Below, piece by piece: positions 942-34,489 of a DNA stretch of 64,000 nucleotides (its first letter is position 1; each line of letters starts with the position of its first letter). The DNA comes from Streptomyces sp. SCL15-4 (GTDB lineage: Bacteria > Actinomycetota > Actinomycetes > Streptomycetales > Streptomycetaceae), in NCBI RefSeq assembly GCF_033366695.1, contig NZ_JAOBTQ010000001.1, forward strand, positions 6,262,001-6,326,000. Direction: 5' to 3'. Position numbers and translations under genes: made by a program. The notes under the pieces are model-generated. The model did not search any database. It was not told where the DNA came from and saw nothing but the letters and a program-made list of their open reading frames with translations.

Positions 942-964
942 ACGCTACGGCCCGCCACTGACAA
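942..964 (-). promoter_or_regulatory. PafBC/RecA-NDp-type DNA-damage promoter of ogt
   Basis: Read on the minus strand, TTGTCAGTG (964 to 956) is followed by exactly 8 bases and then TAGCGT (947 to 942). This is a perfect match to tTGTCRgtg-N8-TAnnnT, the motif known for RecA-independent damage-induced genes in mycobacteria and used by PafBC. The ATG at 935 begins 6 bases past the hexamer. The match is seen directly; induction is inferred. Confidence 0.8.
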
Positions 965-975
965 CGCAGGCCCGT

Positions 976-1848
976 TCAGTCCGATCCGAGGGCCGCCCGC
1001 ACCACATCCGGCTTGTTCGTGATGATCCCGTCGACCCCGTAACCGGCGACCCGGCGGGCGGTGGCCGCGTCGTCCACCGTCCAGGCGAACACTCCGAGCG
1101 GCTGGCCGTGCGGCCCGTGGAAGCCGTGCACCGCCGAGACGTACTCCCGGGTGAGCGACGCGTGCGCGGGGTTGACCAGGTCCGTGAAGCCCGCGAGCCG
1201 GTCCAGCTCCGTCACGGCGGGCGTGCCCAGACAGGCGGTGGTGACCGCCGGCTTCAGCTCGTGGACGGTCCGCACGCTGTCGGTGCCGAAACTCTGCACG
1301 ATCAGCCGGTCCCGGTGCCGGCCGTCCAGCCAGCCCTCGTTGCCGAGGAGCTTCAGCGTCTGCTGTTCGATGCCCGGGTACAGCTCCGGATTCTTGATCT
1401 CCAGGAGCAGCTTCTCGTGGTTGTGCTCGACCCGGCGCATGTACTGCGTCAGCGTCGGCACACGCGCGCCCGCGTACACCGGGGAGAACCAGCGGCCCGC
1501 GTCCAGCCGGGCGATCTCCGCGGCGGTGAAGTCCCGGACCTTCCACGGGGCCCGGCCCGGGAAGACGTCCTCGACGTCGGTGGTGCGCTGGAGGCTGTCG
1601 TCGTGGAGGACCACCAGCTCCCCGTCCTTGGTGCGCTGGACGTCGTTCTCGACCCAGGAGAAACCCAGCTCGGCGGCCTTGTCGAGGGCGGCCAGCGTGT
1701 TCTCGGGCGCGTAGGCGGAGGCGCCCCGGTGGGCGATGACGGCGGGCGTGCCGGTGTCGCCCGCCCGGGCGTCGGAGCCGGGGCTCAGTAGGACCGCCGC
1801 CGTTCCCAGGGCCGCGGCGACCGCGCCGGCGACCACGCGCGCGTACAT
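976..1848 (-). CDS. Secreted glycerophosphodiester phosphodiesterase
   Basis: Hydrolyses glycerophosphodiesters to glycerol 3-phosphate and an alcohol, outside the membrane. The TIM-barrel GDPD family motifs are present: HRGASAYAPENT from about residue 40 (catalytic His and the Glu-Asn metal-site region), ENDVQ and LHDDSLQRTT (second catalytic His), and LLEIKNP (metal-binding Glu). Residues 1-30 form a signal peptide with a hydrophobic stretch, AGAVAAALGTAAVLL. The open frame continues far upstream, but ATG 1848 is the right start: GGAGGAG lies 8 bases before it and the signal peptide begins there. At 290 residues it is a typical single-domain bacterial enzyme, probably used for phosphate or glycerol scavenging. 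It is divergent from the MHYT gene. Confidence 0.9.
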   Translation of the reverse strand: MYARVVAGAVAAALGTAAVLLSPGSDARAGDTGTPAVIAHRGASAYAPENTLAALDKAAELGFSWVENDVQRTKDGELVVLHDDSLQRTTDVEDVFPGRAPWKVRDFTAAEIARLDAGRWFSPVYAGARVPTLTQYMRRVEHNHEKLLLEIKNPELYPGIEQQTLKLLGNEGWLDGRHRDRLIVQSFGTDSVRTVHELKPAVTTACLGTPAVTELDRLAGFTDLVNPAHASLTREYVSAVHGFHGPHGQPLGVFAWTVDDAATARRVAGYGVDGIITNKPDVVRAALGSD

Positions 1849-2125
1849 CCGTACTCCTCCCGTCCGGGGATACCGACAGCACCAGACTGACAGCGGGACG
1901 TCAACGGCACCCGGGCGCACGATGGCCACAAACCGAAGAGGGACGTTCCAACTCCGCACACCGGTGGCGCACATCTGCGGCAAGGGCGTGTTTCTTTGCC
2001 GGAAAGTCGTTCGACCATTCCGGTGGGAGTCATACTCTCTGCGACACCCTGACCGCCCGCGCGGTCCTGGGACGGGGGCACATTCAGGTATTCCGGGACG
2101 CAAGAAGGCGGAAGGGCAGCCGCGG

Positions 2126-3004
2126 ATGCAAGGCACGATCGACGGATTCAGCTACGGGGCCGTCACCCCGTTGGTGGCCTATCTGATGGCCTGCCTCGGT
2201 GGTGCCCTCGGCCTGCGCTGCACCACACGGTCCCTGCTGGTCACACACTCCCGGCGGCCCGCCTGGCTGGCCCTCGGCTCCGCGGCGATCGGCTCCGGCA
2301 TATGGACCATGCACTTCGTCGCCATGATGGGCTTCTCCATCAAGGAGGCGCCGATCCACTACGACAAGCCGATCACCTACGCGAGCCTCGGACTCGCCAT
2401 CGTGATGGTCGGCGTCGGGATCTTCATCGTCGGCTACCGCGGCGCCACCGGCACCCCGCTGTTCACCGGCGGCACGATCACCGGCCTCGGCGTCGCCTCG
2501 ATGCACTACCTCGGCATGGCGGGCGTCCGCTTCCACGGGCGGTTCACCTACAACACGCTCACCGTCGCGATCTCCGTCGTCATAGCGGTCGTCGCCGCCA
2601 CCGCCGCCCTGTGGGCCGCCGGACAGGTGCGGGGCTTCCTGTGGAGCGTGGGCGCCAGCCTCGTCATGGGGCTCGCGGTCAGCGGCATGCACTACACCGG
2701 GATGGCGGCCGTCGGCGTCCATCTCGACGGCGCCTCCCACGCCGCCGGCGGCGGGTCGGCGGCGTCGGCGCTCGCACCGATGCTGATCGGCCCGCTCGCC
2801 TTCCTGCTCATCGCGGGTGTCGTCGTGGTCTTCGACCCGCTGATGGTCGTGGGCGGCCCCGACTGGACGCCCGTCGAACACAAACCGGGCGTCCCGGCCG
2901 CCGCCGTCGCCTCCCACGAGGTCGGCCACTCCGCCCTCCACCAGGAGCACGGGCCGGTCCACCGGACCGGGCACCACCGCACCCGCACCCCGCAGAACCG
3001 CTGA
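2126..3004 (+). CDS. Stand-alone MHYT-domain integral membrane sensor protein
   Basis: The protein has 292 residues, about seven hydrophobic segments, and three copies of the M-H-x-x-G/A-M signature: MHFVAMMGF near residue 62, MHYLGMAGV near 126 and MHYTGMAAV near 188. The MHYT domain was proposed to sense O2, CO or NO through copper held by the conserved Met and His residues. In many bacteria it is fused to GGDEF or EAL domains; here nothing follows it except a His-rich hydrophilic tail (EHGPVHRTGHHRTR) that could bind metal. I chose ATG 2126 because GGAAGGG precedes it and the first membrane helix starts soon after. Output partner and ligand are unknown. uvrB follows closely but has its own promoter, which starts 10 bases past this stop. 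Confidence 0.85.
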   Translation: MQGTIDGFSYGAVTPLVAYLMACLGGALGLRCTTRSLLVTHSRRPAWLALGSAAIGSGIWTMHFVAMMGFSIKEAPIHYDKPITYASLGLAIVMVGVGIFIVGYRGATGTPLFTGGTITGLGVASMHYLGMAGVRFHGRFTYNTLTVAISVVIAVVAATAALWAAGQVRGFLWSVGASLVMGLAVSGMHYTGMAAVGVHLDGASHAAGGGSAASALAPMLIGPLAFLLIAGVVVVFDPLMVVGGPDWTPVEHKPGVPAAAVASHEVGHSALHQEHGPVHRTGHHRTRTPQNR

Positions 3005-3014
3005 CCGGGACCGG

Positions 3015-3037
3015 TTGTCAGTGCGGGGTCGTACGGT
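3015..3037 (+). promoter_or_regulatory. PafBC/RecA-NDp-type DNA-damage promoter of uvrB
   Basis: TTGTCAGTG (3015-3023), 8 bases, TACGGT (3032-3037): exact fit to tTGTCRgtg-N8-TAnnnT. The hexamer ends 7 bases before ATG 3045, so transcription should begin at or next to the start codon. This argues against the longer reading frame that opens at 3015 inside the promoter. Confidence 0.82.
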
Positions 3038-3044
3038 GGATGAC

Positions 3045-33826: not shown

Positions 33827-33882
33827 CACGCGACCGCGCGAACCGGCCGTACGACCGGTCCGCACCGCGTATTTCCCACGCA

Positions 33883-33931
33883 AAGCCCCATGTTGGGTAC
33901 GCGCCTGTGAGCGCGGCCTATCATGGGGCTT
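33883..33931 (+). terminator. Long-loop inverted repeat after secG
   Basis: AAGCCCCATG (33883-33892) pairs with CATGGGGCTT (33922-33931); the 29-base loop has its own short GCGC stem. It lies 56 bases after the secG stop and directly before the rbpA promoters. Confidence 0.5.
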
Positions 33932-33950
33932 GCGTCTTGGTGTGGGGGCC

Positions 33951-33993
33951 GGTAACTCCAATCACTGGACGCGCGTTGGGCCTTACGTAGACT
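33951..33993 (+). promoter_or_regulatory. Overlapping SigR-like and HrdB-like promoters of rbpA
   Basis: GGTAAC (33951-33956), 18 bases, GTT (33975-33977) resembles the SigR consensus GGAAT-N18-GTT with a mismatch in the -35. It is interleaved with CTGGAC (33965-33970), 17 bases, TAGACT (33988-33993), a good HrdB-type promoter. In S. coelicolor rbpA is known to be partly controlled by the thiol-stress sigma factor SigR, so dual control is plausible here. Confidence 0.5.
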
Positions 33994-34059
33994 GAGGCGC
34001 TCGCGGCGAAGTGAAACGCCGACTAGCTTCGCGGCACCATCACGCAGGGAGTTACGACC

Positions 34060-34395
34060 GTGGCAAGTGGCAACGCGATCCGAGGAAGCCGGGTCGGGGC
34101 GGGGCCGATGGGCGAGGCCGAGCGCGGCGAGTCCGCGCCGCGTCTGCGCATCTCCTTCTGGTGCTCCAACGGGCACGAGACGCAGCCCAGCTTCGCCAGC
34201 GACGCGCAGGTTCCCGACACCTGGGACTGTCCCCGCTGCGGCTTCCCGGCCGGCCAGGACCGGGACAACCCGCCGGCCCCGCCGCGCACCGAGCCCTACA
34301 AGACGCACCTCGCGTACGTACGCGAGCGGCGCAGCGACGCGGACGGCGAGGCGATCCTCGCCGAGGCGCTCGCCAAACTGCGCGGCGAAATCTAG
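34060..34395 (+). CDS. rbpA: RNA polymerase-binding protein RbpA
   Basis: Actinobacterial transcription activator that binds RNA polymerase and the principal sigma factor (HrdB) and stabilises open complexes; it also affects rifampicin tolerance. The 111-residue protein has the RbpA core with its Cys pairs (FWCSNGHETQ and WDCPRCGFPAGQD), the basic linker, and the C-terminal sigma-interaction domain (KTHLAYVRERRSDADGEAIL). The GTG start follows GGGAG. A three-residue variant start is possible but not needed. It is monocistronic between secG and an MFS gene. Confidence 0.96.
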   Translation: MASGNAIRGSRVGAGPMGEAERGESAPRLRISFWCSNGHETQPSFASDAQVPDTWDCPRCGFPAGQDRDNPPAPPRTEPYKTHLAYVRERRSDADGEAILAEALAKLRGEI

Positions 34396-34466
34396 GACTT
34401 CTCACCGGCCGGGTGCCCGCGGGCGCCCGGCCGGAGCCCGTCCGCGCCCCACGTGACGCCGACCGG

Positions 34467-34489
34467 TTGTCAGTGGCGCCCTCTACGGT
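34467..34489 (+). promoter_or_regulatory. PafBC/RecA-NDp-type DNA-damage promoter of an MFS transporter gene
   Basis: TTGTCAGTG (34467-34475), 8 bases, TACGGT (34484-34489): an exact fit to tTGTCRgtg-N8-TAnnnT, the same motif seen before uvrA, uvrB and ogt. The leader would be about 30 bases and contains the ribosome site GGGGGAG before ATG 34527. Confidence 0.82.

Follow-up and report, generated by a model that had tools for sequence, protein, structure and literature searches.

Predicted PafBC-type DNA-damage promoters before uvrA, uvrB, uvrC, ogt and a transporter gene in Streptomyces sp. SCL15-4, and their recurrence across the genus

The 64,000-nucleotide stretch of Streptomyces sp. SCL15-4 analysed here (the window; contig NZ_JAOBTQ010000001.1, G000:C1:6262001-6326000 in the coordinates used below) carries five sites that match the RecA-independent DNA-damage promoter (RecA-NDp) motif tTGTCRgtg-N8-TAnnnT, for which the regulators PafB and PafC (PafBC) are the candidate readers. 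The first site precedes ogt (381..935, minus strand), encoding a methylated-DNA-[protein]-cysteine S-methyltransferase (TIGR00589, 6.7e-26). Its promoter (942..964, minus strand) is the exact match TTGTCAGTG-N8-TAGCGT, and the ATG stands 6 nucleotides (nt) past the -10 hexamer; we take this ATG at 935, rather than a GTG at 941, as the probable start. The promoter of uvrB (3015..3037, plus strand, as are all that follow) is likewise exact, and the ATG of uvrB (3045..5183; TIGR00631, E value 0 in a scan from 3054) lies 7 nt past the hexamer. The exact match before uvrA (15211..15233) has its hexamer 56 nt from the GTG at 15290 that we chose as the likely start of the gene (15290..18358; TIGR00630, E value 0 in a scan from 15278), or 44 nt from an alternative GTG at 15278. 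The uvrC gene (21747..23855; TIGR00194, 1.7e-158) begins with an ATG 7 nt past the hexamer of a variant site, GTGTCGGTG (21717..21739), with one mismatch. The fifth site, again exact (34467..34489), has its hexamer 37 nt before the ATG of a gene for a major facilitator superfamily (MFS) transporter with relatives of the drug-efflux type (34527..35786; PF05977, PF07690). From these distances ogt, uvrB and uvrC are predicted to yield leaderless messengers, whereas uvrA and the MFS gene, whose starts do not fit that position, would be leadered.

The 8-base spacing is exact in all five sites, each contains the element TGTCRGTG, and four have the full TTGTCAGTG; the single mismatch of the uvrC site falls on a base written in lower case in the motif as the earlier note gave it. 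The positions, spacing and gene assignments of that note all stood up. The matches of the ogt, uvrB, uvrA and uvrC products to NCBIfam exceed the family cut-offs, and the transporter was confirmed by its Pfam matches.

Support from the window alone is moderate: with up to two mismatches allowed there are six matches against 1.54 expected, and six were reached in one of 100 shuffles. Genome-wide support is decisive. A scan of the whole genome, which the earlier note had proposed, found 48 exact matches to TGTCRGTG-N8-TANNNT in 8,422,239 bases and none to the reversed pattern. When the spacing was freed to 4-12 bases the count rose only to 51 (48 at 8 and single matches at 7, 9 and 11), compared with five for the reversed control under the same freedom. 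Positions that were not part of the search pattern are also biased, with a T directly before TGTC in 35 of 48 sites and a purine before that T in 44 of 48. The window holds five of the 48 sites; four of these, the sites of ogt, uvrA, uvrB and uvrC, lie within 24 kb.

For each of the 48 sites the first gene downstream was called from its reading frame and G+C pattern and then family-scanned; some family scores are partial, the frames being cut by the fetched 3 kb, and the first genes at L010, L012 and L042 are poorly called, with short or competing frames. Repair genes are the largest recognisable target group. Twenty of the 48 first genes were assigned to repair, recombination or replication: recA, dinG/yoaA, two uvrD-like helicases, recQ, radA, an HhH-GPD glycosylase, rpsF (with ssb, counted here by inference, presumably behind it), dnaX, and genes for an AlkZ-like protein, a DnaQ-like exonuclease, a RecB-like nuclease and a DSHCT helicase, together with ruvC, rarA, a gene for a UDG-family enzyme, uvrA, uvrB, uvrC and ogt. 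Among the remaining 28 first genes are rimO, folB, the Wadjet gene jetA and the MFS gene, along with genes for a TIGR02960 sigma factor, a MazG-like enzyme, a CaiB-type transferase, a methyl-directed restriction enzyme, a lipoprotein and two SUKH proteins.

Complete site lists were compared for S. anulatus (40 sites) and Streptomyces sp. 2131.1 (41 sites). Both share fifteen targets with the present genome: dinG, recA, a uvrD-like helicase, the sigma factor, folB, the HhH-GPD glycosylase, the RecB-like nuclease, rarA, the UDG-family enzyme, uvrB, ogt, a DUF4253 protein (at 38-48% identity only) and three shared targets of unknown function (L015, L029 and L032). A further pcrA/uvrD row (L016) was excluded from this count because its hits, at about 30% identity, fell on the loci already matched by L013. 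Of the 81 sites in the two genomes, 44 matched none of the 48 targets.

Both putative regulators are encoded in the genome. The genes for PafB (317 residues; L044:494-1447) and PafC (334 residues; L044:1462-2466) lie in tandem, and their products match chains of PDB 7p5x, which we take to be the M. smegmatis complex, at 1.2e-55 and 1.1e-50. Both proteins have Pfam WYL and WCX matches, and PafC in addition matches HTH_PafC, a profile that matches three other places in the genome less strongly (3.6e-6 to 6.5e-4). PafB has no Pfam helix-turn-helix match at 0.001, and its helix-turn-helix is seen by alignment to 7p5x only. In that alignment a stretch of nine residues, FxRMFERDK, is identical to the 7p5x chain. 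It probably corresponds to the DNA-reading helix of PafB with its two outward arginines described in PMC6789036. Upstream of pafBC lies pafA (Pup_ligase, 8.2e-167), and downstream are tatC and the DEAD/DSHCT helicase gene, which bears its own motif site (L034).

The motif occurs in all 121 Streptomyces genomes sampled, with 17-85 sites each (median 44) and 5671 in total against 59 for the reversed pattern. Eighteen further named Streptomyces genomes, those given from 80 loci and sharing at least one genome with the 121-genome set, all have it too (28-78 sites). Among them S. exfoliatus, which is nearest to S. venezuelae among the 80 loci by WhiG (99%; the reference, PDB 6pfj, is presumably S. 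venezuelae WhiG) and served as a stand-in for the S. venezuelae genome, has 43 sites.

Beyond the genus we used a phylum sample of 296 genomes, 26 from the class to which Streptomyces belongs and 270 from outside it. The 17 class members from other genera have 2-39 sites each, 241 in total compared with eight reversed. Outside the class there are 306 sites against 120 reversed; one site or more occurs in 129 of these genomes, and 243 of them hold three or fewer. An HTH_PafC match is present in 26 of 26 genomes of the class. Outside it, the 142 carriers of HTH_PafC hold 227 sites versus 40 reversed, whereas the 128 genomes without the profile hold 79 versus 80, and of 27 genomes with at least four sites 25 carry PafC. 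Thus, outside the class, motif enrichment follows PafC and non-carriers are not enriched.

Very probably, then, all five sites are PafBC (RecA-NDp) promoters and form part of a Streptomyces regulon of about 48 sites in this genome. We favour this reading because of the motif with its exact spacing, the genome-wide enrichment, the repair targets, the presence of PafB and PafC with the identical PafB stretch, and an enrichment that follows PafC; the prediction of a PafBC-type regulon in the earlier note is in this way supported. In the mycobacterial system the mechanism set out in PMC11804915 has single-stranded DNA on the WYL domains, PafB on the -26 element and PafC on sigma domain 4. By extension to Streptomyces, single-stranded DNA arising from damage would bind the WYL domains of a PafB-PafC heterodimer, and damage would redirect RNA polymerase to these promoters.

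The promoter class is already known, also in Streptomyces. According to citing papers, the motif was first described at the recA gene of S. rimosus by Ahel 2002 (via PMC2375139) and generalised for M. tuberculosis by Gamulin 2004 (via PMC2375139 and PMC5087735), the form used here. The UV-inducible S. rimosus recA promoter, TTGTCAGTGGC-N6-TAGggT, has the same motif and spacing, and recA of the present genome (L008) has it too. A 2008 list gives related motifs at 67 genes of S. coelicolor (PMC2375139), and S. coelicolor SCO6735, which has this promoter, rises about 5-fold after UV (PMC5087735). The earlier note called the motif established for mycobacteria; a purely mycobacterial motif is rejected on these reports. 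As here, the mycobacterial genes pafBC adjoin pafA, and mycobacterial targets are repair genes, including uvrA, uvrC, ruvC and recA, together with sigma factors (PMC8223512); PMC2897130 contains one mycobacterial case with starts mapped at a RecA-NDp motif. Unlike in mycobacteria, the targets here also take in an MFS transporter, a Wadjet operon and a methyl-directed restriction enzyme, besides numerous genes whose function is unknown. The S. coelicolor list differs in its looser patterns, and the available text of PMC2375139 neither names a regulator for it nor discusses the position of start codons.

Two further reports touch on the same promoters. In S. lividans, mapped promoters of the form TGTC-12 nt-TANNNT, enriched for COG category L, were ascribed to an unidentified sigma factor (PMC6742748). 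Since TGTC followed by RGTG and N8 makes a 12-nt spacer, this class has the geometry of a PafBC promoter; it also resembles the sites described here in its COG L enrichment and in having sigma factor genes as targets. From geometry and function we infer that the S. lividans class would be the PafBC class, which offers an explanation for promoters that had none; PafB, PafBC, RecA and DNA damage have zero occurrences in the main text of PMC6742748. For S. venezuelae, an initial search mentioned in PMC9380542 (2022) suggested that the PafBC motif is not conserved. That remark looks doubtful, given that all 121 sampled congeners have the motif. Because of that initial search the same paper leaves open whether Streptomyces has a damage response independent of RecA and LexA, and the motif in 121 of 121 and 18 of 18 genomes makes this question directly testable. 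What is added here is the extent of the Streptomyces regulon, a conserved MFS member, the co-occurrence with PafC, the placement of start codons and a link between three reports that had stood unconnected.

Start codons pile up where a transcript beginning 6-8 bases past TAnnnT, the predicted start, would begin. An ATG lies 5-9 nt past the hexamer at 25 of the 48 sites, 12 of them at exactly 7 nt, compared with one at 11-15 nt; if only the best-called frame is considered and GTG admitted, the count is likewise 25 of 48. Across the 121 Streptomyces genomes the corresponding figures are 2421 of 5671 sites (43%) versus 210 (3.7%), and as the 11-15 nt control also catches second ATGs inside leaderless genes, 3.7% is an upper bound for chance. 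The other 17 genomes of the class have an ATG at 5-9 nt at 125 of 241 sites (52%), and S. anulatus and Streptomyces sp. 2131.1 together have an ATG or GTG at 4-10 nt at 55 of 81, a count made without a control; in two other Streptomyces the ATG of uvrB stands 6 nt past the hexamer. A transcript starting 6-8 bases past the hexamer would fall on the start codon, so about half of the sites, including those of ogt, uvrB and uvrC, should give leaderless mRNAs.

According to PMC6742748, about 20-21% of genes in S. lividans and S. coelicolor are leaderless (leader of 0-9 nt), and more than 90% of the S. lividans leaderless genes lack any leader. Against 21%, 25 of 48 gives a one-sided binomial p of 2e-6, which is a guide only, as the denominators differ (genes with mapped starts there, motif sites here). 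We see an even chance that the PafBC regulon is unusually leaderless throughout the class, with about half of its induced mRNAs starting at the start codon, roughly twice the 20-21%, an arrangement that would enable synthesis of repair proteins through leaderless initiation while ordinary initiation is impaired. In M. tuberculosis reporters exposed to starvation and to nitric oxide, leaderless translation stayed steadier than Shine-Dalgarno translation (PMC8485053); by analogy, a functional reason is conceivable for DNA damage as well. Our searches of the open-licence PubMed Central literature gave no paper linking PafBC and leaderless mRNAs; the link between a damage regulon and leaderless messengers is testable. 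At recA (L008) a GTG lies 7 nt past the hexamer in three species and here is in frame, 36 nt before the next ATG; recA may thus have a longer, leaderless form.

Several observations weigh against the PafBC reading. Of the 48 first genes 28 are not classed as repair, and 12 are without a strong family match. Outside the class, 117 of 142 PafC carriers have three exact sites or fewer, and six of the 17 class genomes outside the genus have six or fewer, so that the exact motif is sparse in many genomes that carry PafC. The complete lists of S. anulatus and Streptomyces sp. 2131.1 contain no strict site for uvrA or uvrC. Finally, the predicted leaderless messengers have start-codon position as their one line of evidence.

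Among the alternatives, the one that survives best is that a separate sigma factor reads these promoters, for instance the motif-bearing extracytoplasmic function (ECF) sigma factor of TIGR02960 type (L014); we consider it unlikely. Such a role was proposed for SLIV_13900/SCO4895 in PMC6742748, whose available text also reports no 12-nt peak in the S. coelicolor HrdB regulon. The TIGR02960 gene of this genome (505.5 bits against a cut-off of 264.75) has its motif site 57 nt from an ATG and 21 nt from a GTG further upstream, and the site recurs before relatives of 79-81% identity in two other species. However, TANNNT is a -10 element of housekeeping type, the genome encodes PafB and PafC with the PafB stretch conserved, and motif enrichment outside the class, in a test made for PafC, follows that protein. 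In mycobacteria, moreover, the motif needs PafBC together with the housekeeping sigma factor (PMC11804915), and the HrdB set was made without damage, in which case the absence of a 12-nt peak would be expected. The TIGR02960 gene itself is a target in three species (here at G000:C1:3400174-3400195), and the damage regulon may have a second tier.

Control by LexA through the SOS response, with the motif secondary to it, is a very improbable account of induction. For S. venezuelae, PMC9380542 describes LexA action at recA and ruvC and weak binding to uvrA, so the targets of the two regulons overlap, although the operator differs from the motif considered here. Close to three of the five promoters there are matches to the SOS box TCGAAC-N4-GTTCGA with three mismatches: one (15124-15139) precedes the uvrA site by about 70 nt, and the other two lie within genes, near the starts of ogt (901-916) and uvrB (3064-3079). 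Matches of this quality are frequent in the window (41 versus 26 expected), and those at the promoters are at about background frequency. At two mismatches or fewer none lies near the five sites, the three in the window being at 12991, 19784 and 51549. A dual control of uvrA by LexA and PafBC is possible.

Equally improbable is that ClgR, not PafBC, reads the motif: PMC5656591 cites Wang 2011 for recognition of the RecA-independent P1 motif by ClgR in mycobacteria, but later work puts PafB on the -26 element in the transcription complex (PMC11804915). Chance matches in a GC-rich genome, an idea that can point to the one shuffle in 100 that equals the window count at two mismatches, are rejected by the 48-to-0 count, the exactness of the spacing, the presence in 121 of 121 genomes and the conservation at orthologues, and are scarcely credible.

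The transporter gene of the window is, under the PafBC reading, a predicted damage-inducible member of the regulon. Pfam MFS_3 (PF05977) and MFS_1 (PF07690) match its product above their cut-offs. Its NCBIfam matches are of the drug-efflux kind and all fall below the curated cut-offs, the best being TIGR00900 (168.5 bits, cut-off 319.6). Relatives at E <= 1e-60 occur in 48 of the 121 Streptomyces genomes, at 49 places. In the best 30 of these 49 loci (64-100% identical) the strict motif lies 25-67 bases upstream in 30 of 30, a count that includes the gene of the window (29 without it); the remaining 19, of which three have an in-frame stop and one is a partial match, are outside the count. A stray match before the MFS gene is rejected on this conservation. 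There is no site for the gene in the lists of S. anulatus or Streptomyces sp. 2131.1, S. anulatus (G115) being one of the genomes where the search gave no relative. In the lineages examined the MFS gene is thus, by its upstream site, a stable member of the predicted regulon, and we propose that it encodes a damage-inducible transporter, conserved in some lineages of the genus. That it exports a DNA-damaging compound would be a guess.

Defence genes also lie behind such sites. A complete Wadjet operon, JetABCD (L244, G000:C1:8376500-8385300), has a motif site at G000:C1:8385081-8385102 (minus strand), upstream of jetA and 42 nt from a GTG and 60 nt from an ATG of that gene. Two Streptomyces plasmids (JetA identity 98% and 82%) have this site before jetA as well; it was not found within 600 nt upstream of an Arthrobacter jetA relative (three of ten records looked at). 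Wadjet would here be a plasmid-defence system on a predicted promoter of the DNA-damage type. Directly past the -10 hexamer an inverted repeat begins in the Wadjet leader (L041/L244; L246 from 559; L247 from 553) and folds in all three sequences at -21.4 to -22.8 kcal/mol (z -3.0 to -4.5). This repeat may act as an operator or as a terminator-like brake. The gene for a type II methyl-directed restriction enzyme (PADLOC mREase_II, 2.6e-222) has its site 40 nt before the ATG (L011, G000:C1:2979236-2979257).

Outside the class, 17 genomes of one family (f15) hold 81 sites versus four reversed, some with an ATG 5-9 nt downstream (for example 8 of 11 in G198), and this family seems to be a second lineage that uses the same promoter. 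In G409, G285 and G211, which belong to the class of Streptomyces, several near-identical sites recur in a single genome (in G409, for example, ...TACAATCGAACACATG), as if borne by a repeated gene family.

Within the window, finally, uvrC overlaps rapZ (23852), and whiA follows downstream on the same strand (25950-26939), with a further gene between the two. Across this interval (21717-26939), read-through from the predicted damage promoter of uvrC could reach the sporulation regulator whiA.

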